A stretch of 64,000 nt of DNA, taken from contig JAFYXV010000001.1 in assembly GCA_017557885.1 (NCBI GenBank), forward strand, positions 1 to 64,000, given 5' to 3'. The notes beneath the pieces are model-generated. The model saw only the letters and a list, made by a program, of their open reading frames with translations, ran no database searches and was not told the DNA's origin. Source of the DNA: a bacterium. Lineage in GTDB: Bacteria; Auribacterota; UBA3054. Below, one piece after another: positions 1 through 42,250 of the stretch. Position 1 is the first letter of the stretch. Each line of letters begins with the position of its first letter. The translations under genes and the position numbers were made by a program.

Positions 1-2370
1 ATCCTGACGCAGATCTCCACGGCCTGGGGACTGAACCCTGCGGCCCGCGGCTCCAAGCCGCTCTCCTTTTTCCTGGTGGGCGCCAGCGGCACCGGCAAAA
101 GCCATCTGACGAAGCTTCTGCAGGAGGCTTTCGAAGAGGTGCTTCATATTCCCCAGATCCAGACTATAGACTTCGCCAGATTTGCCACTGAGCAGATGCC
201 CATGGACCTTATCGGCAGGGACAACAACTGGAAGGACGGCGGCCGCGAAGGCGAGCTTACCCGCCGCGGCTTAGAGAATCCCAACGGCATCATCGTTATC
301 GACAATTACGAGCTCGGCCATCCCATCGCCGTGTCTTATCTGAACACGGCCCTGGAAGAGGGCCGTCTGGCGGATGCTTTCTCCGGCAAGACCATCAGCT
401 TCGCCAACAACATCTTCCTCATCCTTACCAACAATAAGGAAGTAGCGGAGAACGACGAGTTCCTGACGCTTGTCTCGAAGGATAAGAAAATGCCCCCGAA
501 GGACAAGCTGGTGGAAGGCCTGGTGAAATCCGCGCCGAAATTCAAATCCACCCTGGCGCTGGTGGACCAGCCCGTGCTGTTCCTGAAGCACGATTTCAAG
601 TCTTTCTTCGCGGTCCTGAAGGATCGCTTCCTGGATCTTCAGCGCCAGGTCTCCGAGACCTTCGACGCGGAGTGCGACTTCGAATCCGAGGAGGTTTACC
701 GCCTGCTTGTGGGAATGCATCCCCAGATCGCTTCCGCCCATCCGATCCAGCCTGGTCTGGAGGACATGGTCCTGATGCCTATCCAGGATTTCCTGAGGGA
801 GCATCTGAAGGAATTCAAATCTCCCCGCCGCATCCGTATCGAGTGCGAAAAGCTGCCGGCTTGGGACTGCGCTCCGGAAAAGACTTCCGGCAAGGCCATC
901 GACGAGGCTTGGCTGGAGGAGCTGACCAAGATCCGCATCCGTCAGGCGACAAGGCTCGCCTTTACGCCTAAGGTCGAGCTTGCTGGCAACGAACTTATCC
1001 TGCGCTTCACCGACATCAAGCATGTGGTGATGCCCTCCATTGAGGATTACGGCTATTTCTCCGTTACGGCCCCCAACGTTAAGTTCAGCGACCTGGTGGG
1101 TGTGGAGGTCGTCAAGGAGCGCGTCCAGGAAGCCCTGGACTTATACTCAGGCAAGGCCAACGGCAAACACTCCAAACCCCAGACTGGCATGATCCTCTGC
1201 GGACCTCCCGGAACCGGCAAGACTTCCGTGGCCAAGGCTATCGCCAACGAACTCGGCCGCCCCTTCATCATGGTCAACGGCGCGGATTTCCGCAAGAGCA
1301 TTGTTGGCGAGGGCGTCGAAAGCGTGAAGAAGCTTTTCGCGGCGGCCCGCCGCTACAAAGCCGTGATCTTCATCGACGAGATCGACGCCCTGGGCAACAG
1401 GGACACCGGCAGCCTTGATCAGGTCAATGTCATCGACGCCTTCCTGTCTGAGTTGGACGGCTTCACGGCCAGGGAAATGCTGGTCATCGGCGCCACCAAT
1501 CGCTACCATGTCCTGGACACGGCCATGGTGCGCAAGGGCCGCCTTTCCCTCAAGGTCGAGCTGGGCAACCTCTGCCGCAAGGAAGACCGCCGCAAGCTGA
1601 TCGAGCTGGAATTGAAAAAGATCGACGTTTCCCTGGAAGAGGAGATCATCCAGAAACTCGTGGAGACCACCAGCAAGTGGAGCCCCGCGGACATCCTCGG
1701 CCTGATCAACGAGGGTATAAGGATCGCTGAAAAGCGCGGTGAAAAGCCCGAATTCAAGCATTTCGTCGAGGCTCGTACTATCGTCATTCTGGGAGAAGAC
1801 CCCCAGAAGCAGGAGGGCACCCCCGAGGAGATGTACATGATCGCCGTGCACGAAGCCGGACACGCCGTCTGCTCCGTTCTGCGCGGCATCCGCTTCGTCC
1901 ATGCGACCATCCAGGGAGCCGGCTCCGTGGCGGGCTATGTGGACACCTACGATTCCAAGTACGTCCACACCAAGAAGGATCTGGAAAACATGATCGACCT
2001 GGCTCTGGCCGGCCGCGCGGCGGAAAATTTGCTCTCCGTCAGGACCTGCGGCGTGGAATCTGATTTCAAGCAAGCCACCGGCAGCGCCATCAGAATGCTG
2101 CAGGAGGGCCTGGCCAGCGAGCACATCCTCACCCTGCCCGGTGAGCAGACGGATCTGGAAGCCTTCAACAAGTTCGCCATGAACCACCGCAAGGAACTGG
2201 AGCAGATCCTGAACGAACGCCTGAAAGCCGTCGAGAAGCTTTTCAAGGAGCACATGGACTTCCTGAAGGCTGTAGCGGACGCCCTGGCGGAGAAGAAGCT
2301 TCTGCTTGAATCCGAGATCTTAGCCATTAAAAAATCCGTGGAAGGAGAAAAAGTATGTACGGAACGCTAA
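1..2370 (+). CDS. Hybrid Clp-type/FtsH-type AAA+ zinc protease (5' end outside window)
   Basis: The reading frame is open from base 1, so the N-terminus is missing; the GTG at 76 is inside the first Walker A and is not the start. Residues are counted from base 1. Module 1 (about 10-160) resembles the ClpA/ClpB D2 ATPase: Walker A GASGTGKS at 27-34, a Walker-B-like IVIDN at 98-102 with Asn where Clp proteins have the catalytic Glu, and a sensor-1-like LTNN. Module 2 (about 370-590) resembles the FtsH ATPase: GPPGTGKT at 401-408 and IDEID around 458-462; the arginine-finger segment reads RKGRLSLK, keeping the first but not the second FtsH arginine. Module 3 is an M41 peptidase with HEAGH at 617-621 and a third-ligand motif ESDFKQAT. 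No membrane segment is visible, unlike FtsH. Predicted ATP-dependent protease of unknown substrate, translationally coupled to the next gene. Confidence 0.85.
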   Translation: MLTQISTAWGLNPAARGSKPLSFFLVGASGTGKSHLTKLLQEAFEEVLHIPQIQTIDFARFATEQMPMDLIGRDNNWKDGGREGELTRRGLENPNGIIVIDNYELGHPIAVSYLNTALEEGRLADAFSGKTISFANNIFLILTNNKEVAENDEFLTLVSKDKKMPPKDKLVEGLVKSAPKFKSTLALVDQPVLFLKHDFKSFFAVLKDRFLDLQRQVSETFDAECDFESEEVYRLLVGMHPQIASAHPIQPGLEDMVLMPIQDFLREHLKEFKSPRRIRIECEKLPAWDCAPEKTSGKAIDEAWLEELTKIRIRQATRLAFTPKVELAGNELILRFTDIKHVVMPSIEDYGYFSVTAPNVKFSDLVGVEVVKERVQEALDLYSGKANGKHSKPQTGMILCGPPGTGKTSVAKAIANELGRPFIMVNGADFRKSIVGEGVESVKKLFAAARRYKAVIFIDEIDALGNRDTGSLDQVNVIDAFLSELDGFTAREMLVIGATNRYHVLDTAMVRKGRLSLKVELGNLCRKEDRRKLIELELKKIDVSLEEEIIQKLVETTSKWSPADILGLINEGIRIAEKRGEKPEFKHFVEARTIVILGEDPQKQEGTPEEMYMIAVHEAGHAVCSVLRGIRFVHATIQGAGSVAGYVDTYDSKYVHTKKDLENMIDLALAGRAAENLLSVRTCGVESDFKQATGSAIRMLQEGLASEHILTLPGEQTDLEAFNKFAMNHRKELEQILNERLKAVEKLFKEHMDFLKAVADALAEKKLLLESEILAIKKSVEGEKVCTER

Positions 2371-3221
2371 ATAAGAACCATTGGGTGCCAACGTATCCCG
2401 AAATGAAGGACAGTCCGGTCGATCTGGGACACGACGAGCTTACGCTCTGCTTTTACAAACAGCTTCCCATTATTTATATTCAGGATAGGTGCACGGTCGT
2501 GGAAGACCCCGCCTGTTTCTGGATCGACAAGCATCACATTTATCTGCGCAGCAGCTGGAGCAGCTGGACTACGGTCGACGAAAGCGAGAGTGAACTGGTC
2601 GAAACGCTGCTGAAATGCAAGTACTGCTATGTCGGCATCAATCAGGACGACTACAATTACAAGTACGCGGTCGTTCCCGTTTACCACATCACAAGGCTCC
2701 CGGCCGACCTTTTCGACAAAGTGTCCTACGGCGAGGAGCGCAGCGAACGCTTGATCGTGAGGGACGACCAGGAGCTTGATGAAGACGAAACTTTTCTGTT
2801 TGAATATATGGATCTCTTCGGACCTTCAGAGCAGGACGACGCTTTGCTCAAAGCGCACAGCTTCTTCTGGAAAGAATTGTCCCAGTTTGCGTACCGTTTC
2901 AGGGAGAGGCTGGAATTCAAGTTCAACGCTAAGGTCAGGAACAATGTCGCCGATCTGATGATCACAAAAAAAGGCGATTGTGTCATGATGCTGGACTTTC
3001 TCAAGGACGACGAGCTGGAAGACGTCGATGCCCATATCGTTAAACTTCGCAGAATGCGCCTTTATTTTAAGGCCAGGAATCCCAAAGTTTGTTCGCAGAT
3101 TGGCCTTGTGGTCAGCGAGTCGGCGCAGGAAAAATTGATCGGCAAAGATCTTTCCGATCTCCATCTTATTGTTCGCGGAAATTTGAGGAAAAAATTGTTT
3201 GATTTCTTTTTCCTGAAATAA
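2355..3221 (+). CDS. Unknown protein coupled to the hybrid AAA+ protease
   Basis: I do not recognise this 288-residue protein. It begins inside the last 16 bases of the protease gene in another frame, so the two are probably translated together and may act together, for example as adaptor and protease. It has no signal peptide or membrane segment, is acidic in its middle third and aromatic-rich throughout. The segment around residues 195-260 (VADLMITKKGDCVMMLDFL followed by an amphipathic helix) is loosely like the core of PD-(D/E)XK-fold proteins, but the ExK signature is absent, so that is only a guess. It is followed by a very stable hairpin at 3230-3273. Confidence 0.75.
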   Translation: MYGTLNKNHWVPTYPEMKDSPVDLGHDELTLCFYKQLPIIYIQDRCTVVEDPACFWIDKHHIYLRSSWSSWTTVDESESELVETLLKCKYCYVGINQDDYNYKYAVVPVYHITRLPADLFDKVSYGEERSERLIVRDDQELDEDETFLFEYMDLFGPSEQDDALLKAHSFFWKELSQFAYRFRERLEFKFNAKVRNNVADLMITKKGDCVMMLDFLKDDELEDVDAHIVKLRRMRLYFKARNPKVCSQIGLVVSESAQEKLIGKDLSDLHLIVRGNLRKKLFDFFFLK

Positions 3222-3379: not shown

Positions 3380-4906
3380 ATGTCTGAAGAGCGCATTGAC
3401 AACGAAATGGAAGAAAGAGAAGAAAAGGGCGGCAGAAGATCATCCCTGAGTTGGATCGTATTCCTCTGCTTCAACGTCCTCCTGGCGTTGGGCCTTTCCT
3501 TTTTCATAGCGAAAGAATCATTAAATTACTTCAGCCGGTATTATTTGATCGCGCTGTGGGCGATCGAGCTTGTTTACGCCCTGAATGTGGCATCCCTGAT
3601 AGGTTTCAAGCGTCTCTTGCCCTGGGCGCTGCTGGCAGTAGTCATAGGCTGCTGTGTCTATTCCCTTGGTTTGAGTTTTAATTTCATCAGACCGATTGGC
3701 TTGGCGTCGCAGGCGATCTGCGCGGAGGAAGCCGCGGAAAGCGATTATTGCGAGGAATCTGCGGAGGATGTTTCCTCTGAGGAAGAGAGCGGCAACGTTT
3801 TCTGTGAGGAAAAAGCCGAGAGCGCTTCCAAGGAAGAAGAGAAAGAAGTGCCTGAATGGGAGAAGCATTACGCCCACAAGTATGAGGATGACATTAGCGT
3901 TACCAAAAAGGGCGCTTTCAGCCTTTACACCTATTCTTTCTCGGGAGAGGGGAAGGAGCACACCAAAGAAGAGATCGAAAAATACGACATATCTTATCCC
4001 TTCAATAGTTCGGCATATTATTCCGAAGTGGAATCCAAAGTCAGCATCGAATGGCCCGAACTGGAAAGCGGGCTCTCCCCGGCGGCGCTGGCTAAAGTCC
4101 GCAGAGCAATCCTCTGGATGGCTTTTTCCCAGGTCGTGCCCTACGGTTTCATTCCCTATGACAGGCTGAAGGGCCTGGGTGAAACTCCAGAATCCATTTT
4201 GAAGTATTTGAGCATAATCGATACGAACGAGTGGGAGTATCTCGACCATTACATTTCTGACAGCGTCGAGGACGGCTATATCTCAAATTCCGGCAATTTC
4301 TGTCTGTGCGGCTTCATACTCTCCCGCTTCATGGGAAAGCTTCCGGCAAAAGTTGGGGACGTGGTGGGGGACGACTGTCTGATGGCCTCTCTTGACTTCG
4401 CCAAGCAGTATGCCAACGAATGCTACGAATGCGAGCTGACAAACCATCACATCTGCAGCCAGTATATGTTCACCGCGCAAGTCAGTCTTTCCTGGCCCTT
4501 CGGCCTGAAGGCGAAGGAAGGGGCGAAATGGTACGAGCGTCCGGTCATGTGCGTCACACACTGGGGCTACGCCAACGACGGCGGCAACGGAGACCACAGT
4601 TTCAACACATCTAAGATCTACAGCCTGCCTGACGGCGAAGAACTGTATATCGAGGATTATTTCGCCTCTGATAAACTTAAGGATCTGAAGGCTTTCGTCA
4701 AGCAGCGCCTGATCTCGGATTGGATTAACAACGACGAAGACGGCAAGGCCGAATTGGAAAGGAATGGTTTTTACCTTGACGACATCAAGATCAGCGAGAA
4801 AGGCATGCTGTTCAAATGGCCGGTTTACGCCATATTGTCGCGCCCTTGGGCTTCCCCTGAAGTCTTCATCGAATGGAAGGATCTGGAGCCTTTCATGAAA
4901 CAATGA
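3380..4906 (+). CDS. Membrane-anchored protein with RsiV/DUF3298-like C-terminal domain (paralogue A)
   Basis: 508 residues. A charged N-terminus is followed by three hydrophobic segments (about 24-45, 53-75, 79-98), a Glu-rich linker (about 115-155), then a large domain. This domain is shared with the gene at 5846-7078: both have ALAKVRRAILWM, a Cys pair in the segment leading to LTNxHICSQ, PFGLxAKE, and an end of the type W-D/N-DLEPF-KQ. The motif SLPDGEELYIEDYF plus the C-terminal layout resembles DUF3298/RsiV extracytoplasmic domains; this is a resemblance by eye, not an established hit. The gene starts a three-gene group (A, FGE-like protein, paralogue B) ended by the terminator at 7113-7142. 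Start ATG 3380 follows an AAGGAG-type site. Confidence 0.75.
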   Translation: MSEERIDNEMEEREEKGGRRSSLSWIVFLCFNVLLALGLSFFIAKESLNYFSRYYLIALWAIELVYALNVASLIGFKRLLPWALLAVVIGCCVYSLGLSFNFIRPIGLASQAICAEEAAESDYCEESAEDVSSEEESGNVFCEEKAESASKEEEKEVPEWEKHYAHKYEDDISVTKKGAFSLYTYSFSGEGKEHTKEEIEKYDISYPFNSSAYYSEVESKVSIEWPELESGLSPAALAKVRRAILWMAFSQVVPYGFIPYDRLKGLGETPESILKYLSIIDTNEWEYLDHYISDSVEDGYISNSGNFCLCGFILSRFMGKLPAKVGDVVGDDCLMASLDFAKQYANECYECELTNHHICSQYMFTAQVSLSWPFGLKAKEGAKWYERPVMCVTHWGYANDGGNGDHSFNTSKIYSLPDGEELYIEDYFASDKLKDLKAFVKQRLISDWINNDEDGKAELERNGFYLDDIKISEKGMLFKWPVYAILSRPWASPEVFIEWKDLEPFMKQ

Positions 4907-4931: not shown

Positions 4932-5834
4932 ATGACAAATATACGAGATACATTAGCCAAATATCTGGTCCTGGACCTTACGACCTTCCAGATCAGGGAA
5001 GAGCAGAAGGGACCTATGGAAGATCCCACGGTCTTGAAAAGCGACTTGTGCCGGACCTCCGAACTGTGGCTCAGAAGGATCGAGCCCGGGACTTTCCTGA
5101 TGGGCAGCCCGAAAGATGAATTGGGCCGTAGCCGTCATGAGGACCAGCGCCAGGTGACGCTGACCGCTCCTTTCTACCTGGGAGTTTTTCAGGTGACGGA
5201 AAAACAGTACAAAATGGTCGCCGGGCGCAAGGGGCTCGGGAGCATAAGCGAGCATTTCTTCGGCCGCGCCAAGCCCGTCAACGTGGATTATTTCACTATC
5301 CGCGGAACGGAAGACTGGCCCAAAAGCGACCAGGTCGCCCCGGATTCTTTTCTGGGGCTTCTGCGGGGCAGAACCGGGCTGGACTTTGATCTGCCTACGG
5401 AAGGCATGTGGGAGTACGCCTGCAGGGCGGGAACGACCACGGCCTTGAACGACGGCAGAGACATTACCCATGAAGAGGAATGCCCCAATCTGAACAGGCT
5501 GGCCCAAAATTATTTCAGCACGAGATGCTACAGGAACAAGGAGGGAGCCACTCCCGCGCCCGTTGGGAAACATCTCCCCAACGCCTGGGGCCTCTTTGAC
5601 ATGCATGGGAACATCTGGGAATGGTGCCTGGACTTTTATGCTGAAAAACTGGGCACAGAGCCCGCCGTAGATCCGAAGGGCCCCAAAGAGGGCAGCTACC
5701 GGGTAAACCGGGGCGGGGATTTCGAGGACCTGGCCTACATGTGCCGCTCCGCCAACCGCAACAGAAGCGTTTCCCATTGGAAGCAGCTTTACTGCACTAT
5801 AAACGTCGGCTTTCGTCTGGCGCTAACCTTATAG
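4932..5834 (+). CDS. FGE/SUMF1-fold protein, cytoplasmic, probably not a true sulfatase activator
   Basis: 300 residues. The FGE-sulfatase (SUMF1) fold is evident from PGTFLMGSP near residue 53, FDLPTEGMWEYACRAG, GLFDMHGNIWEWCLDF and a terminal VGFRLAL. The segment after RGGDF has a single Cys in MCRSANRNR, and the paired catalytic cysteines of authentic formylglycine-generating enzymes are not present, so it belongs with the broader EgtB/PvdO-like family rather than with sulfatase maturases. There is no signal peptide. It sits 25 bases after membrane paralogue A and 11 bases before paralogue B, so it may be a soluble partner of those two proteins. Confidence 0.85.
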   Translation: MTNIRDTLAKYLVLDLTTFQIREEQKGPMEDPTVLKSDLCRTSELWLRRIEPGTFLMGSPKDELGRSRHEDQRQVTLTAPFYLGVFQVTEKQYKMVAGRKGLGSISEHFFGRAKPVNVDYFTIRGTEDWPKSDQVAPDSFLGLLRGRTGLDFDLPTEGMWEYACRAGTTTALNDGRDITHEEECPNLNRLAQNYFSTRCYRNKEGATPAPVGKHLPNAWGLFDMHGNIWEWCLDFYAEKLGTEPAVDPKGPKEGSYRVNRGGDFEDLAYMCRSANRNRSVSHWKQLYCTINVGFRLALTL

Positions 5835-5845
5835 GGAAAAAGAAA

Positions 5846-7078
5846 ATGAACGTGAGAGATCGTAAAGAAAAAGGCCGTAAGCCCAGGGGATTCGCTTTCC
5901 TGGGCTGTTTTTCCATGTTGTCCTTCGCGGTGGTCATCGTCGCCATCGGGCTTATGATATATGCCAATCATAGCCGCTGGGAGGCCAAGCAGGAGGCCCT
6001 CCGGGAAGAAACCGTCCCGGCCGAGGCGTATGCGGAAACAGAAGCTGAAGCCGGAACGGAAGTCGAAGCGGAAACAAAGAGTTCCGAGCCTAATGGCGAG
6101 CGCCAAAGAAGCGTTGAAGAAAGCGAGAAGGCTTGGGATTTTAACAAGGGCTTCTATTCCCTTTATGAATATGAGTACAAATCCGAAGGTCCCGAGCACA
6201 CGAAAGAAGAGATCGATAAATACGACATGCTTAAACCAATCTGGGGAAGCTATTCTCCAGATGTTTCGACCAGCTGGCATATAGAGTGGCCGAACGAGAG
6301 TTGCGGCTTGACGCCTCCCGCCCTGGCTAAGGTCCGCCGGGCGATATTGTGGATGTGTTTCAGCAACAGCATTTATTATGACATGCCCGATGAAGCTCTG
6401 GGAGAAACAAGAGAGTCTATTCTGGCCAGAAGGAACAAGATCGACGCAAGCAAGACAAACGACACATATCTTTCCCACTCCGATTACGCGAGGCTGGATA
6501 AGGATATAACTTCCCACAAGGCCGGCAAGAAACCGGCGGTGGAGGGCGATTCCGTTCCCACCTCCTGCCTGGAGCTGGCCTTTGACACTCTTAAAGAGTA
6601 CGCCCAGGAATGCGGCGAATGCCAGCTGACCAACGGACACATCTGCAGCCAGTTTACCTTCGGCGCTAACATCGAGCTTTCCTATCCCTTCGGCTTGCAG
6701 GCAAAAGAAGACGCTGCTTGGTACGCAAGGCCGGTCCTTTGCGTCCACTACTGGGGCTGGGCCAACGACGGAGGCAGCGGCAGCCACGACGTGACCAACG
6801 ACAAGGTGTACAGCCTGCCGGACGCCGAGGAGCTCTTCCTTACGGACTATATAGCGGAGGACAAGCTTAATGCTTTTAAAGAATTTTTAAGGGAACGCAT
6901 AATCGAGCAATCGAACGACAATTATCGCAAAGAGTGGGCTCAGGAAAAGGATATTTTCAAATACATGAACGATCTGCATATGACCGTAAACGGGGAAGGC
7001 CTGATCGTAAGATGGTGGAGAAACGAACCGGAGGTCCCGGTATCCTGGAATGACCTGGAGCCCTTCAGAAAACAGTGA
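5846..7078 (+). CDS. Membrane-anchored protein with RsiV/DUF3298-like domain (paralogue B)
   Basis: 410 residues from ATG 5846, preferred over upstream starts because it lies just after the FGE-like gene and is followed at once by a basic segment and one hydrophobic helix (about 18-37), a type II anchor. A Glu/Ala-rich linker (about 50-85) leads into the same large domain as the protein at 3380-4906, with matching ALAKVRRAILWM, LTNGHICSQ, PFGLQAKED, WGWANDGG and NDLEPFRKQ. Paralogue A has three hydrophobic segments, so the two differ mainly in the anchor. Predicted to be a membrane protein with its large domain outside the cytoplasm; function unknown. Last gene of its group, followed by an intrinsic terminator. 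Confidence 0.75.
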   Translation: MNVRDRKEKGRKPRGFAFLGCFSMLSFAVVIVAIGLMIYANHSRWEAKQEALREETVPAEAYAETEAEAGTEVEAETKSSEPNGERQRSVEESEKAWDFNKGFYSLYEYEYKSEGPEHTKEEIDKYDMLKPIWGSYSPDVSTSWHIEWPNESCGLTPPALAKVRRAILWMCFSNSIYYDMPDEALGETRESILARRNKIDASKTNDTYLSHSDYARLDKDITSHKAGKKPAVEGDSVPTSCLELAFDTLKEYAQECGECQLTNGHICSQFTFGANIELSYPFGLQAKEDAAWYARPVLCVHYWGWANDGGSGSHDVTNDKVYSLPDAEELFLTDYIAEDKLNAFKEFLRERIIEQSNDNYRKEWAQEKDIFKYMNDLHMTVNGEGLIVRWWRNEPEVPVSWNDLEPFRKQ

Positions 7079-7146: not shown

Positions 7147-7378
7147 AGAAAATCTTGCCAATTGAATTAAACTTGTAACTGAAGCAGCTGACATAGCTGA
7201 ATCCGGACATACAATCATCGCAGGTTGCACAAAAAGCTGTATTATAGAACGGTGAGCGAATTTAGGAATACATTCAATAGAGCTGCATAGATCGGACCAA
7301 CTGTTACGCCTAGAGGTGGATGGAATATACAAAAAATGATAAACTATAACAAACTTACAAATCAAAACAATGTGCCAA
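7147..7378 (+). mobile_element. Decayed right end of an IS3-family element
   Basis: This stretch aligns with the right end of the intact IS at 14436-15779. It carries a mutated 3' end of orfB (compare 7203-7300 with 15608-15690), then an almost identical non-coding end (7320-7364 with 15721-15765) and the terminal repeat at 7365-7378 (right TIR with one change). The coding part contains stop codons and indels, so it is an inactive remnant; no left end is present nearby. Together with the terminator it fills most of the gene-free stretch 7079-7413. Confidence 0.8.
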
Positions 7379-7680
7379 ATTTTAACCATAAAAAGGACTG
7401 ACCTGAAGGTTATGTGGGATTGCAATACTATTGTGTTTGGGAAGTTAATGATAAAAGATATCCTATAGAATGGGAAATCGTAGGAGATTTGTCAGAAGGT
7501 TTAATTCAAGACAATAACATTATTTCCGGATTGCCTAGGCAAAATGGAAATTATTCTTTTAAATTAAGGGCAATCAATCAAAAAGGAAGATATGACGAAA
7601 AAAGAATGCATTTGTCTATTAAAACACCAGACGAATCATATGTTGATTATGGAAGCGGAAGCTATGAGGAAAATCAATGA
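7379..7680 (+). pseudogene. 5'-deleted fragment of a secreted He_PIG-domain protein (cassette 1)
   Basis: From 7402 the sequence encodes a single putative-Ig (He_PIG-like) domain, with motifs VNDKRYP, LSEGL and ISGLP, matching the second half of the gene at 15737-16231. An in-frame stop (7399-7401) precedes the match and the only internal start is GTG 7414. Compared with cassette 2, about 140 bases between ATTTTAACCAT and the PxGY codons, including the calcium-binding repeat, have been deleted. It directly abuts the IS remnant. No signal peptide remains, so it is probably not functional, although a short product from GTG 7414 is possible. Confidence 0.7.
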
Positions 7681-7690
7681 GGCTCATATT

Positions 7691-10126
7691 ATGAAACAAA
7701 TAAGCAATATATTTTTATTTATAATTTGTTTTTTGGCGGTTTCTTGTTTATCTTTTGCAGAAACTCAAACTGACGTTTTTTTTAACAAAAGCCAAGGCTC
7801 GGTGATATTGACCGTTCCATATTATGAACACAATGGTAATTCTGCAACGAATTTGGATATTATCTTGCAGCCTGGAGATATGTATCAGCCTTCGGATCAT
7901 GGTAATGGTTTCGTTTATAAAAAATACGGTTTTATGCCAGATATGGTATCAAATAGCATATTAGTTTTGAGTGATAGAATTCCGCGCTTTCATAACAATT
8001 CGAATGAAAAGATCGATGAAGAATTTTTGCAGGTAAAGAAAGCGATTGCGTCCACAAATGTTCCTGATTGGTGGATTGAGAAAAAGGTTGAGGATTTTAA
8101 AATTAAAGAGGATGCTTACAGATCAAATTTAGATTATCTTAAAAAGATGCACAACCAGTATGAGGAAAGGAAATTAGAGTTTCCAAAACCCGATCAAAGA
8201 AAAACACTTGACGAAGAATATGCAAAAACCTTCAAGGATATAGAACGGAAAATACATAATCTTAGTGAAGTGACCAATATAACCGCAAAGAGCCTTAAAC
8301 AATTAAATAAAGTTAAAGCTGATATAGACAAAGACGGCTTAAGCAATTTTGAAGAATTCTATTGCGATTCTAATCCGCTTTTAAAAAACGGCGTAGCCGT
8401 TTACCCGCATCTCTTGGAGATCAAAACAAACGGATACGACGTTGTAACCAACTTTTTCATGGTTGCTAATCTTACGAAAACAAACAGCGTTTATTGCTTA
8501 GATTATCCGAACAAAGATGTGGGCCAAAAGTATGCGCCAATTATTAAGGCTATGGATTTGCAAACTTCAACGAATGGACAAGGTCAAATCATCTTAAATC
8601 TGGGGCCGAAACAAAAAGTTAAGTTTTATTTGCTTATTAAGAAGGATCTGTTGGCTTACCGCATGTTAAATTATTACACAATTAAAATTCGTTCGACAAA
8701 TGTTTTTGACTCCGATTTGTACAAAGCATTGTTAAAACTTTATGTGTCTGGTACTCACCATACGGAATTGATCCCGCCGGTGATTAAATCTCCGAAAGTT
8801 GGGGAGTATTTTAGAACGCTTAAAAATGTTAAATTTGCTTGGGTCTCCACGAATGAAAATGCTGTAGTTTATTCTTCCAGCGTTCCGGCGTATAACGTAT
8901 TTATATACGACAACAATGGTCATGAGGCTGGTTTTGCGCTTGGAGGCCTAGGCTGGATGAAGGGCGATCATACATTAATTAAGCAGGACCGCTGTGATAA
9001 CATTAAACCTGGAAATTATATATGGAGAGTAGTTAAGCAGGATGCTTATAATTCCCCGGTTTGTTCCGACTGGGGATGGTTTGCGGTCGGAAAGGAAATA
9101 TCGCCGAGCGACACGTTGGACAAACCAAGAAGAGTTCCTCCTGTTGACGAAAGGTTGACAAGAAAAGGCCTTAATTTTATCGTGGGACAGCGCGAAGATA
9201 AATGGTTGTCAAATGAAAACGAAGACGCAAATTCTAAACCTTACTTTCTTTATCCTTTGCCGGAAGGCCTTCAGTTAGGAGTTCTTGAGGATGGACGTTC
9301 CGGCTGGTTTTTATACGGCGCCGCGGAATCACCAGGGTGTTTTACAAATTATTATGTCAAGTTTTCCGGAGATGCTTGGGTCACTAATCGTCAGGTAATT
9401 ACTGTTTTGAATTCTTTGGACAAAATTAAGACTAATTCCATATATCGTGTCAATTATCAAACAGTTTCTCATGAAGTGACAGTGAATATTCCTTTCAAAT
9501 ATTCAGCGAGTGAATTTTATAATGCTTTTGAAGGGAAGAACGGACCGATGCTAAACGCAGACGCTCAAGCGGATTTTGCCGAGGATTTGCCAGAAGGTCT
9601 TGCCGGCCAAAAATCAGACGATGATTACATAATTTCCGGGACGCCTAAAAAAGCTGGAATATATACGAATTATTTTGTCGTTTCCGACGGGGTGCGTTCT
9701 GCGAAAGAAAGGCATGTTTTCAAGATTCAGGATATCGGCGAACCTTCTCCAGTAAAAAAGCCAGAAAACAAACATGAAATCTCTTTTTTGGCGAATCACA
9801 AGCCGGGTTTGGTAGAGCACAGAATGAAAGTTGGCGAAAAGTACAAATATCCCATGGGAATGGATTGGATATCTGCCGATCCTGCAATGAAAAAGAACAT
9901 GAAAAATGAAGAGCAGGTGGACGCGGACTTTTTGCGGCCTCTTCCAGACGGATTTATTATGTCCATAGAATCTGAAGAAATAAAAGACAAAACATATGAT
10001 TATTTTATGCTTTGTGCCAATCCAAGGGCCGAGGGAACGTTTACTAATTTTGCCAGGATAGTCAACACTGAATTCGTGTACACCAACATGCATATATTTA
10101 AAATTGAAAAAGGGAAAAAATATTAA
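7691..10126 (+). CDS. Large secreted protein with TSP3/EF-hand-like and He_PIG-like domains (cassette 1)
   Basis: 811 residues from ATG 7691, chosen because it begins a clear signal peptide ending near SCLSFA. It is paralogous to the protein at 16228-18246: shared are LTVPYF/Y, the Y-P-I/L-GD-Y pattern, WWI-K, a calcium-loop segment (DIDKDGLSNFEEFYC then SNPLLK), GNYIWRVVK, and SDWGWFAVGKEI. Toward the C-terminus there is a He_PIG-like segment (LPEGLAG then IISGTPKKAG). Predicted to be exported and surface-associated; its biochemical role is unknown. The DNA is clearly more AT-rich than the neighbouring genes and codon use differs (many AAA, TTT, AAT), suggesting separate ancestry or transfer. 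Confidence 0.75.
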   Translation: MKQISNIFLFIICFLAVSCLSFAETQTDVFFNKSQGSVILTVPYYEHNGNSATNLDIILQPGDMYQPSDHGNGFVYKKYGFMPDMVSNSILVLSDRIPRFHNNSNEKIDEEFLQVKKAIASTNVPDWWIEKKVEDFKIKEDAYRSNLDYLKKMHNQYEERKLEFPKPDQRKTLDEEYAKTFKDIERKIHNLSEVTNITAKSLKQLNKVKADIDKDGLSNFEEFYCDSNPLLKNGVAVYPHLLEIKTNGYDVVTNFFMVANLTKTNSVYCLDYPNKDVGQKYAPIIKAMDLQTSTNGQGQIILNLGPKQKVKFYLLIKKDLLAYRMLNYYTIKIRSTNVFDSDLYKALLKLYVSGTHHTELIPPVIKSPKVGEYFRTLKNVKFAWVSTNENAVVYSSSVPAYNVFIYDNNGHEAGFALGGLGWMKGDHTLIKQDRCDNIKPGNYIWRVVKQDAYNSPVCSDWGWFAVGKEISPSDTLDKPRRVPPVDERLTRKGLNFIVGQREDKWLSNENEDANSKPYFLYPLPEGLQLGVLEDGRSGWFLYGAAESPGCFTNYYVKFSGDAWVTNRQVITVLNSLDKIKTNSIYRVNYQTVSHEVTVNIPFKYSASEFYNAFEGKNGPMLNADAQADFAEDLPEGLAGQKSDDDYIISGTPKKAGIYTNYFVVSDGVRSAKERHVFKIQDIGEPSPVKKPENKHEISFLANHKPGLVEHRMKVGEKYKYPMGMDWISADPAMKKNMKNEEQVDADFLRPLPDGFIMSIESEEIKDKTYDYFMLCANPRAEGTFTNFARIVNTEFVYTNMHIFKIEKGKKY

Positions 10127-10237
10127 GGCGCTTAAATCTCTTTTTAACGATAATGACAATGAACCTCAAACGAACTCCTTTTCGTCCTTAATTAATTGTA
10201 AAATATAATGTAATGCAATAATATCGGAGAGAATGAT

Positions 10238-14475: not shown

Positions 14476-14913
14476 ATGAAAGACAGAATTCGGTATAGTA
14501 TGGCATTCAAGCTAAAAGTCATGGAAGAGCTCAGGGACGGGAAGTGGAAATCAGTATCAGGAGCGGCAACGGCATACGGGATTTCTTATAACACAGTTTA
14601 TGTTTGGATGCGGGCTCTTGGCTTCGAACATCTAAAAGGGAGGTTGATCTACGTGAAAACTAGAACAGAACTAGATGAGATCAAGAGACTTAAGGAAGAG
14701 CTCAGAAGATTGAAAATACAGCTGTCGGATGAGATACTTGATCACAAAATTGACGAAGCCGCCCTCCAGATCGCCTGCAGCAAACTAGGGATAACCCCAG
14801 AAGAGCTAAAAAAAAGAGCGCCGAAAAATAGCGCATATGATCTGCTCAAAGATAAAAAGAAAAGTATCCGCCATTTGCAGGAAGCTAGGCATGACAAGGC
14901 AGTGGTTTTATAG
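14476..14913 (+). CDS. IS3-family transposase OrfA
   Basis: 145 residues. An N-terminal helix-turn-helix (SGAATAYGISYNTVYVWM) is followed by a leucine-zipper-like helix (about 62-95), the usual OrfA layout for terminal-repeat recognition and oligomerisation. A strong AAAGGAGA site precedes ATG 14476. Its 3' end overlaps orfB by about 75 bases. The two frames are related as +1, not the -1 usual in this family, so a standard -1 frameshift would not make OrfAB. Confidence 0.9.
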   Translation: MKDRIRYSMAFKLKVMEELRDGKWKSVSGAATAYGISYNTVYVWMRALGFEHLKGRLIYVKTRTELDEIKRLKEELRRLKIQLSDEILDHKIDEAALQIACSKLGITPEELKKRAPKNSAYDLLKDKKKSIRHLQEARHDKAVVL

Positions 14914-38720: not shown

Positions 38721-39989
38721 TTAATAATGGATCGCAATGCGGAAACCGCAGTTGCCGTTCTTAGCGTCTTTGGACATTCTCATGGCCATGCGGCAGTGGG
38801 CGGGAGTGTCGGTCTTGTAGATGCCTCCGCCCTTGCAGCAGAAATTCGCTTTCTTTGAATAGTTGCCGACCGGGTCTGTCACAGAGGCAGTGCCAAGGTT
38901 TTTCGATAAGCGGTCAAGGCAGTAATCCCAGGCATTGCCGTGCATATCGTAAAGTCCGTTCAGGCCGGGAGTCAACAATCCAACTTCTTTGACTTCGCTG
39001 TTTGGATCAGCATTCCAGGCGACGTTCGTCGTGTGGGACCAATCGGCCACTTGATTTGGATAAAAAGAAACGCCGTCATTCCAGACATAATCGCCGTGAT
39101 AAGTTCCGTCGCAATTGTAATCTCCATTGGCAGCGTAAGTCCCGTCGCCCTTGTCTCTGGCGGCCATTTCCCACTCGGCTTCCGTCGGCAGGTCGAATAT
39201 GAGACCGTGTTTAGTTTTCTGGCGCAGCGTGCCGAAGAAACTGCCCTCATCTACTCTGTAGTCGGTCTTGTCAGGCCAGGTCATGCCGTAGGTTTCGCCG
39301 CGCAGCTCTTTCTCTTGTATCTGGACTCTGGGCAGCTTGCTGTTTCTGCCTGTCTGGATATTCATTATCCTCGAGTACTGGTCTGCAGTGGTTTCAAGCA
39401 CGCCGATGTATATGGGCCTGGTGATCGTCACCTGATGCTTGTCTTCGGGAATGCCGCCCGGTTGTCTGTTCGGTTCGTCCGAGGCGGAGCCCATGTAGAA
39501 GGTTCCCTGGTTGATCCTTCTGAACCAGACATTTGTGGTTTTGCAGGCGTTATTATGGCCAACATTCGCCGGGCCGGTCGCGCTGGGACTCAGGGTGTAG
39601 TCGGCGAGATCCAACTTAAGGTAAGTCGAAGCGGTTCCGCTGACGTCCAGGGCGATCACGTTGAATTTGGCGTCGTCGGTGTCAGTACTTGGCTTGTCCA
39701 CAGTGGAGTTCCAGGTGATTCTTTTTACGCCGGATCCAAGTACGATGCCGCAGGCTCCCTCGCCTTCGATGGAGCTAAGTGCGAAAATGGTGCCGTCTTC
39801 GATCTGGCCTTGGAAAGCCACGCGGAAAACAGGGAACGTCGCATTGGAGGTTAAGGTATAGTCGATGTCAACCTTGCCGTTCCAGGGCCAGCGCTGGGAA
39901 GCGGTGACGCTGGTCAGCGTGCTGTTTGCCATAACTGACGCGGCGGCAGTTAAAGACAGCAAAAGTAAAAATAGAGTTCTGTTGTTCAC
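38721..39989 (-). CDS. Secreted FGE/SUMF1-fold protein
   Basis: 422 residues from GTG 39989, chosen for the GAGGTG site just upstream and by analogy with its paralogue. Signal peptide ends near VMA-N. An N-terminal beta domain (about 20-140; QRWPWNGKVDIDYTL, GVKRITWN) precedes the FGE-fold domain: GTFYMGSASDE, FDLPTEAEWEMAARD, NGLYDMHGNAWDYCLD and GFRIAIHY. The paired catalytic Cys of true FGE is not in the expected place, so the activity is unknown. Paralogue of 40919-42250; third in a minus-strand group with the PEP-CTERM gene 10 bases upstream. Confidence 0.85.
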   Translation of the reverse strand: MNNRTLFLLLLSLTAAASVMANSTLTSVTASQRWPWNGKVDIDYTLTSNATFPVFRVAFQGQIEDGTIFALSSIEGEGACGIVLGSGVKRITWNSTVDKPSTDTDDAKFNVIALDVSGTASTYLKLDLADYTLSPSATGPANVGHNNACKTTNVWFRRINQGTFYMGSASDEPNRQPGGIPEDKHQVTITRPIYIGVLETTADQYSRIMNIQTGRNSKLPRVQIQEKELRGETYGMTWPDKTDYRVDEGSFFGTLRQKTKHGLIFDLPTEAEWEMAARDKGDGTYAANGDYNCDGTYHGDYVWNDGVSFYPNQVADWSHTTNVAWNADPNSEVKEVGLLTPGLNGLYDMHGNAWDYCLDRLSKNLGTASVTDPVGNYSKKANFCCKGGGIYKTDTPAHCRMAMRMSKDAKNGNCGFRIAIHY

Positions 39990-40918: not shown

Positions 40919-42250
40919 TTAAAAAACGATTGCAATGCGGAAACCTATGTTGGTGGTTCTGGCGTTTCTGCCCATTCTCATGGCCATGCGGCAATAGTTG
41001 GTGGGGTCGCTTACATAGACGCTGCCGCTCTTGACGATGAATCTGGTGTCCGAAGCATCGCCAACGGGGTCGGTCACAGCGCTGGTGCCGAGATGGACGG
41101 AAAGGCGGTCAAGGCAATATTCCCAGGCGTTGCCGTGGATGTCGTAGAGCCCGTTTATGCCGGGTTCCTTCAAGCCGACATCGTGGACGGCGCTGTTCGG
41201 ATCCTGACACCAACCGAGTCTGGCCATGTCGGTGTAGTCCACCACATTCGTGGTATATGATCTTTCGGGATCAAGAGGATCTTCAACCACCTTGGTCTTC
41301 CAGAAAGATGAGCCGTCGTTCCAGACTTTGTCGCCGTGGAAAGTGCCGTCGTAGTTATAAATTCCGTCATCGTCGTAAGTCCCGTCGCCCTTGTCCCTGG
41401 CGGCCATTTCCCACTGGGCTTCCGTCGGCAGGTCGAATTTCAGGCTGTAGCCGGTCTTCTGGCGCAGCCTGCCGAAGAAACTGTTGCCGTCAACTCTGTG
41501 GTCGGTCTCGGTAGGCCAGGTCGCTCCGTAAGCGGTGCCGCGCAGATCGTCCATGTTGACTGATACCGCCGGGGTCTTTGTGCTGGAAGAGGAGCCGGAA
41601 TTGATCATCGCATACTGGGCTGCGGTGCATTCGAAAATACCGATATAGAAAGGCTTCGTGATCGTCACCTCGTGCTTGTCTTCATAGACTGTGGGGTTGA
41701 CGGAGGGTTCTCTGCCAGGTTCGGTCGGATCGGAGCCCATGTAGTAGGTCCCGGGATTGATCCTTTTGAAATAAATCTTCCAGGTCTTGTAGGCATCCCG
41801 CGAAGGATTGTCATTCGAAAGATCCGGACCGGCCATGGTGTAGCTCATGGTGTAATTGTTAAGATCCAGGATAAGGTATTCGGCGGCCTTGGTGACGTCC
41901 AGGGCGATGATGCCGACCTTCACACTGCTGGAATCGGTATTCGGCTTGTCAATTGAAGCATCCCAGGTGACTCTTTTCACGCCGGCAGCAAAGGTGACGC
42001 CGCAGGCGCCGTCGCCTTCAAGGGTGTTGAGGGCGAATGCTTCGCCGTTCCCTATCTGGCCGTAGAAAGCGGTGCGGAATACCGGGCTGGGCGAGGTGGA
42101 GGACAGGGTGTAGTTAATGTCCACCTTGCCGTTCCAGGGCCAGCGCTGAGCGCAGCTGATATTCGTTACCTGGCTGGGGGTAAGATCAGCCAGAACGGAT
42201 ACGGCAGCTGTCAAGGCAAGCAAAAGAGCAAATACAGATCTGCTGTTCAC
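40919..42250 (-). CDS. Secreted FGE/SUMF1-fold protein (paralogue)
   Basis: 443 residues from GTG 42250, preceded by AGAGGA; an upstream frame to 42310 would add residues before the signal peptide. Signal peptide ends near SVLA-D. Same architecture as 38721-39989: QRWPWNGKVDINYTL in the beta domain, GTYYMGSDPTEPG, FDLPTEAQWEMAARD, NGLYDIHGNAWEYCLD and GFRIAIVF. The RGGS motif near the end is altered to KSGS. First gene of the FGE/PEP-CTERM/FGE group. Confidence 0.86.
   Translation of the reverse strand: MNSRSVFALLLALTAAVSVLADLTPSQVTNISCAQRWPWNGKVDINYTLSSTSPSPVFRTAFYGQIGNGEAFALNTLEGDGACGVTFAAGVKRVTWDASIDKPNTDSSSVKVGIIALDVTKAAEYLILDLNNYTMSYTMAGPDLSNDNPSRDAYKTWKIYFKRINPGTYYMGSDPTEPGREPSVNPTVYEDKHEVTITKPFYIGIFECTAAQYAMINSGSSSSTKTPAVSVNMDDLRGTAYGATWPTETDHRVDGNSFFGRLRQKTGYSLKFDLPTEAQWEMAARDKGDGTYDDDGIYNYDGTFHGDKVWNDGSSFWKTKVVEDPLDPERSYTTNVVDYTDMARLGWCQDPNSAVHDVGLKEPGINGLYDIHGNAWEYCLDRLSVHLGTSAVTDPVGDASDTRFIVKSGSVYVSDPTNYCRMAMRMGRNARTTNIGFRIAIVF

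Follow-up and report, generated by a model that had tools for sequence, protein, structure and literature searches.

AAA+ proteases are sorted by the way in which ATPase and protease are paired: Clp ATPases feed ClpP, a protein of its own, and FtsH is membrane-bound and has a single AAA ring. The first 2,370 nucleotides of a 64,000-nucleotide stretch of DNA from a rumen bacterium (the whole of which is called the window here) appear to place two AAA modules, one of Clp type and one of FtsH type, and an M41 peptidase in one chain. A soluble chain in which a Clp-type ring tops an FtsH ring and an M41 chamber would break both pairing rules, and the question is whether such a protein exists and how it might work. 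An earlier note, made from the sequence of the window, held that no protein combining Clp with FtsH is known to have been described. Our searches agree with this claim, as no family with a Clp-FtsH-M41 fusion was found in Pfam, NCBIfam, or PADLOC, and none was found in the open-licence literature searched. The fusion is real, is undescribed within the scope of these searches, and belongs with the AAA+ proteases. Judged by its motifs, it resembles an AAA+ protease yet lacks defining features of both parent families, FtsH and Clp.

Window positions 1-2370 on the plus strand form a single uninterrupted open reading frame of 789 amino acids, which is open from base 1. The window starts at the end of contig C13 (99 kb, in a genome of 2.24 Mb), so that the gene is cut at its 5' side because the contig begins inside it. 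The chain proposed in the earlier note is thus continuous over 1-2370, but these positions hold only part of the gene. The upstream extension that the note had suggested was provided by contig C12 (6.2 kb), which is 99.6% identical to C13 1-5327 on the opposite strand and extends 889 bases upstream beyond the C13 start. C12 supplies the N-terminal 194 residues and an ATG start, giving a full fusion protease of 983 amino acids. The gene, its domains, and the gene that follows are as listed.

Contig C12, L004:5329-5910, minus strand: missing 5' part of the gene, 194 codons, carrying the N-terminal helical domain
1..2370, plus strand: 3' part of the fusion protease gene, encoding residues 195-983 (983 in total; full copy in RGIG7788, L006:6001-8949)
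1..828, plus strand: module 1, AAA core of Clp/HSP100 NBD2 type with its small domain (residues 195-470; whole module about 166-470), from AAA_2 and fold
829..1053, plus strand: linker, helix and beta hairpin (residues 471-545), with a receiver (REC) domain here in distant relatives, from AF2 and alignment
1054..1803, plus strand: module 2, FtsH-type AAA (residues 546-795), from Pfam AAA, FtsH structures, AF2, and Foldseek
1804..2367, plus strand: M41 zinc metalloprotease domain (residues 796-983), from Pfam Peptidase_M41
2355..3221, plus strand: downstream gene, 288 amino acids, no known domain, starting inside the 3' end of the protease gene after GGAAGGAG

Between C12 and C13 there are 20 differing sites, of which 15 fall within bases 234-583, with eight amino acid differences in the common part of the protease. 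The cluster at 234-583 turns the module 1 Walker B Asp into Glu. The two contigs are either strain variants or two gene copies. Immediately adjacent upstream of the protease gene is a 42-amino-acid open reading frame, and the 319-base upstream region is one base from identical between the window genome and RGIG7788. The 288-amino-acid gene is preceded by a strong ribosome-binding site and is kept at the orthologous loci of both genomes, and its product is likely a translationally coupled partner of the protease. The flank of the paralogue described below contains no equivalent of it.

RGIG7788, a sister genome from water-buffalo reticulum, carries the whole 983-amino-acid gene at 95% identity, with the operon order unchanged. 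The contig that bears it recurs without a difference in the same-genus genome G007, which also encodes a paralogue (L028) of 971 amino acids with 50% identity and the same domain order. The Nei-Gojobori dN/dS was 0.27 for the whole chain, 0.20 for module 1, and 0.08 for module 2, and M41 was without amino acid change. For the paralogue the same method gave 0.26, with synonymous sites saturated. The fusion chain is under purifying selection, across the join as well. The N-domain coding region (L006:6151-6600 compared with L004) had 84 to 87% identity and a dS of 0.28, while the C-terminal half of the same pair was about 99% identical, with a dS of 0.02. A divergence so far above that of the C-terminal half and the upstream region suggests recombination or diversification of the N-domain.

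Residues 1-165 were helical with a 4+4 pattern in an AlphaFold model whose confidence was too low there for the fold to be used, and a Pfam scan of this segment gave no match, Clp_N included. When similarity to Clp_N was compared with that of shuffled sequences, 8 of 2318 shuffles scored better than the paralogue, 55 of 2412 better than the orthologue, and 371 of 2316 better than the window protein. This weak similarity of the rumen proteins was clearer in the distant relative L274, where none of 1671 shuffles scored better. Clp_N ranked 4th of 300 profiles against the N-domain, which is likely, though not proven, to be Clp_N-like. Module 1 matched Pfam AAA_2 at window-protein residues 21-156 (5e-13, 49.9 bits against a cut-off of 27) as well as the D2 halves of the ClpV, ClpA, and ClpB models, and the alignment to Clp D2 runs through the D2 small domain, which is present. 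The AF2 model had a pLDDT of mostly 83-95 over residues 171-340, and its best solved structures in Foldseek were Skd3 and ClpB NBD2 (E 2e-18). Profile and structure searches both placed module 1 with Clp/HSP100 NBD2 proteins and not with a non-Clp family already known to be fused to M41, the result that the earlier note had named as fatal to its proposal. The motifs of module 1 are as follows.

79..102, plus strand: Walker A GASGTGKS (GAPGTGKN in paralogue L028), from motif scan and alignment
229..231, plus strand: Trp W271, pore-loop aromatic in place of the Tyr in Clp GYVG, kept as Trp by all three copies
301..306, plus strand: Walker B, Asp-Asn (DN) for DE, with EN on C12, from alignments

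The replacement of the Walker B Glu by Asn that the note had described was seen in the alignments and recurs in the 50%-identical paralogue, where the Ser/Thr of Walker A is also replaced by Asn. Module 1 has further losses that the note overlooked, namely the Arg finger (no NR) and sensor 2 (SAH for GAR). A motif scan found no ClpP-docking [LIV]G[FL] loop in module 1 of the rumen copies. The division of tasks between modules that had been proposed is plausible but has to be amended: with these motifs module 1 looks ATPase-dead rather than like a binding ATPase, and module 2 is without its gripping aromatic.

Module 2 was matched by Pfam AAA at window-protein residues 397-522 (4e-37), followed by Peptidase_M41 at 609-774 (8.5e-16), so that AAA_2, AAA, and Peptidase_M41 were all found in the predicted order. 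Module 2 and M41 together align over the entire cytosolic part of FtsH structures, and their model (pLDDT 84) matched FtsH over its length in Foldseek (E 1e-28). Structure prediction thus gave a Clp NBD2 fold for module 1 and an FtsH fold for the remainder. The NCBIfam FtsH equivalog TIGR01241 scored 214 bits against a cut-off of 600, with the 789-amino-acid part that holds the whole FtsH-like region as the query. An initial alignment that combined fragments of FtsH with those of Clp was discarded, as it placed Clp D2 on module 2. The following motifs were located.

1201..1224, plus strand: module 2 Walker A GPPGTGKT, intact, from alignment and motif scan
1300..1308, plus strand: module 2 pore loop 1, IVG for FVG (RRG in the paralogue), from alignment
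1375..1380, plus strand: module 2 Walker B Asp-Glu, intact, from alignment and motif scan
1540..1551, plus strand: module 2 Arg-finger region, RLSL for RFDR, first Arg kept and second lost, from alignment
1849..1863, plus strand: HEAGH zinc-binding/catalytic motif, from motif scan; conserved in all copies
2062..2064, plus strand: Asp882, third Zn ligand as judged from the FtsH alignment; conserved in all aligned sequences

Both Walker A sites and the HEAGH motif are therefore present in a single chain, as first noticed. The reported loss of one Arg finger in module 2 also held in the alignments (GRFDR to GRLSL), and the second Arg is gone in the paralogue too. Sensor 1 is retained and strictly conserved, like Walker A, Walker B, and the first Arg finger. 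Module 2 is without the pore-loop aromatic and pore loop 2 (the GGxNDERE segment), both of which had been overlooked. In FtsH, the Phe of FVG has been reported to be responsible for substrate binding (PMC9020784). Robust unfolding by module 2 is doubtful because this Phe, the second Arg finger, and pore loop 2 are lost. No membrane helix was found in the full-length 983-residue protein, for which the best 19-residue hydropathy was 1.37, compared to 2.59 for the genome's own FtsH. The lack of a membrane helix, first noted for the visible part, holds by this measure for the full-length proteins.

The survey of genomes that the note had proposed found the same order beyond the window genome. Among 44 genomes of the phylum, the fusion was present in the window genome (G000) and G007 only, and among 384 related genomes only these two matched module 1 above ordinary Clp levels. 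One survey used exact peptide patterns and missed the 50%-identical paralogue, and the surveys for distant relatives scored only two candidates per genome, so that this rarity is a lower-bound statement. Two further, distant genomes carry a similar chain with a receiver domain.

L257:460-3036 (G410:C4): relative L257, with receiver domain, N-terminus cut by the contig end
L274:1951-5355 (G141:C1): relative L274, with receiver domain, full length 1135 amino acids

L257 contains AAA_2, a receiver (Response_reg 7e-5), FtsH AAA, and M41, with no membrane segment. L274 contains an N-domain, AAA_2 (4e-29), Response_reg (6e-4), FtsH AAA (4e-51), and M41 (7e-39), and both Walker A and Walker B of its module 1 are intact. 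A stretch of L274 near the linker has a hydropathy of 2.0, and a membrane segment there is possible. Because both Response_reg scores fall under the Pfam curated cut-off, the receiver assignment relies on the E-values and on conserved residues; by eye, both receivers keep the acidic pair, the phospho-acceptor Asp, Ser, and Lys. Proteolysis in these relatives may possibly be switched directly by phosphorylation. The module-1 tree joins the rumen copies to L274 (UFBoot 98), and the module-2 tree joins them to L257 (UFBoot 100), with L274 unplaced (support 53). The simplest reading of these trees would be one family that includes L257 and L274, from which the rumen form was derived by receiver loss and module 1 erosion. 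A single common origin is not proven, because the fusion branches are long and the L274 module 2 has a support of 53, and an independent origin of the L274 fusion is possible.

No viral contig contained a relative of the fusion. Coverage of 80% was not reached by any phage or plasmid record for module 1 with the N-domain or for L257, nor by any plasmid record for L274; a viral or plasmid origin was rejected on these grounds. What looked like an N-domain match in a plasmid from Klebsiella (H23) was discarded, as the alignment ran into an unrelated amidase gene. None of the long-frame FtsH matches L011, L030, L273, L275, L276, and L277 was a Clp-FtsH fusion. L030:783-3779 (G027:C168) is a 998-amino-acid chain with two FtsH units (AAA and M41, twice), of which the first M41 has HEAGK for HEAGH. 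L011:1444-4098 (G045:C2) is an 884-amino-acid FtsH with two consecutive AAA modules and then one M41, in addition to FtsH_ext and membrane segments.

Compared to FtsH and the m-AAA and i-AAA proteases (MEROPS M41), module 2 and M41 are alike, with HEXXH and the third Asp ligand in common. The fusion differs from FtsH in having no transmembrane segment and an extra Clp-type AAA and N-domain in front, in the lost FVG pore motif, pore loop 2, and second Arg finger, and in its score below the FtsH equivalog cut-off. Module 1 shares fold and sequence family with the HSP100 NBD2 proteins (ClpA/B/C D2 and Skd3/CLPB), but the fusion is without the Walker B Glu, Arg finger, sensor 2, D1 module, and ClpP-docking motif, and its Clp module is followed in the chain by FtsH, whereas HSP100 ATPases partner with ClpP. 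The Ycf2-FtsHi motor, which was among the structural matches of module 2 and M41, is likewise FtsH-derived with eroded modules. In contrast to the fusion, it is a membrane-bound hetero-complex for protein import that has lost its proteases and has no Clp module. A Clp-type disaggregase and FtsH are also genetically linked in the stress-tolerance islands (tLST, PMC8290217), although there ftsH and clpG/clpK are separate genes, the FtsH is membrane-bound, and both AAA modules of ClpG are intact. These adjacent genes on plasmids make the pairing of Clp with FtsH biologically reasonable.

We favor the reading that the protein is a cytosolic single-chain AAA+ protease in which a non-hydrolyzing Clp-like cap sits over an FtsH motor and M41 chamber, and we consider this somewhat probable. 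What is read directly from the sequence is the domain order, the predicted lack of a membrane anchor, the intact module 2 ATPase motifs and Zn site, and the eroded module 1. A Clp NBD2-type ring, preceded by a helical N-domain that is probably like Clp_N, would be stacked on an FtsH-type ring and an M41 ring, presumably in a hexamer. Clp-type and FtsH-type AAA rings are not otherwise known to stack in one particle. Ring 1 would not hydrolyze ATP and may act as a substrate-receiving cap, with the conserved Trp pore loop holding the chain. Ring 2 would be the source of ATP-driven motion, and M41 would cleave. In the relatives, the receiver between the rings would switch the machine via phosphorylation; in the rumen lineage, which presumably lost the receiver, control is perhaps exerted via the N-domain or the coupled downstream protein. 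More tentatively, and with rather less than even confidence, we propose that these chains represent an undescribed soluble AAA+ protease family with the order Clp_N-like, Clp NBD2, REC, FtsH, and M41, which would be switched by a histidine kinase and in its rumen form would be receiver-less with an ATPase-dead cap. The fusion offers a natural test of how much weight a dead second ring and missing pore aromatics carry for unfolding, and the receiver-bearing relatives suggest that two-component signaling could switch proteolysis directly, with no adaptor such as RssB.

The main rival is a processing protease for unstructured tails. By this account, the protein would not be an unfoldase; an ATP-assembled ring would cleave only unstructured tails or one dedicated partner, for example the 288-amino-acid protein, and the AAA modules would serve assembly and gating. 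Such a role would fit a module 2 that in both paralogues is without pore aromatic, pore loop 2, and second Arg finger, the loss of all module 1 hydrolysis features beside a perfectly kept M41 site, and the conservation of the coupled downstream gene alongside the orthologue. However, that neighbor is missing beside the paralogue, and Walker A, Walker B, sensor 1, and one Arg finger of module 2 are strictly conserved. With these motifs conserved and a very low dN/dS, hydrolysis by module 2 apparently matters, and we regard the processing role as rather unlikely.

A component of a conflict or defense system is improbable. The nearest described logic is that of the ternary MoxR-vWA systems that contain FtsH: their third component joins, in a single protein, an inactive AAA to a following active AAA of the FtsH type, and their vWA protein has ClpN domains (Kaur et al. 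2020, PMC7159879). The patchy distribution of the fusion and the matches of PADLOC PDC-M37B (4.6e-20) and DolB (1.6e-13) to module 1 and of IetA models to module 2 point the same way, but what these models match is the general AAA core. Each of the two AAA copies in the published system is of the FtsH type, MoxR and vWA are partners, and M41 is not mentioned in the main text, whereas no MoxR, vWA, Ubl, or caspase-like domain was found among the flanking open reading frames scanned around the three copies (the L028 contig being only 6.9 kb).

Finally, an assembly or frameshift artefact fusing a clp gene to an ftsH gene, as the earlier note had warned, could appeal to the start of the window at a contig end and to the separate ftsH and clp genes side by side in plasmid heat-stress islands, but it is refuted by one continuous frame in two contigs of the window genome, in the independently assembled RGIG7788, and in the 50%-identical paralogue, by purifying selection across the join, and by related fusions in two unrelated genomes.

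Beyond the 288-amino-acid gene, two related putative membrane proteins of 508 and 445 amino acids (window 3380-4906 and 5741-7078), with no assigned family and conserved in RGIG7788, flank an FGE-sulfatase gene. The neighboring FGE-sulfatase genes were dismissed as functional partners, being uninformative because the 2.2-Mb window genome has 39 FGE-sulfatase-domain matches. These include window 4932-5834, 38733-39515, and 40931-41761, and some form tandem arrays with frames of up to 1768 amino acids. Expansions of the FGE fold are possible targets of diversity-generating retroelements. A segment of about 3 kb (window 7163-10178) is missing from the otherwise collinear RGIG7788 locus, where the alignment skips from window 7162 to 10179. 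This segment contains an 844-amino-acid open reading frame with no Pfam match, and an integrase-type rve gene lies further along the window, at 14837.
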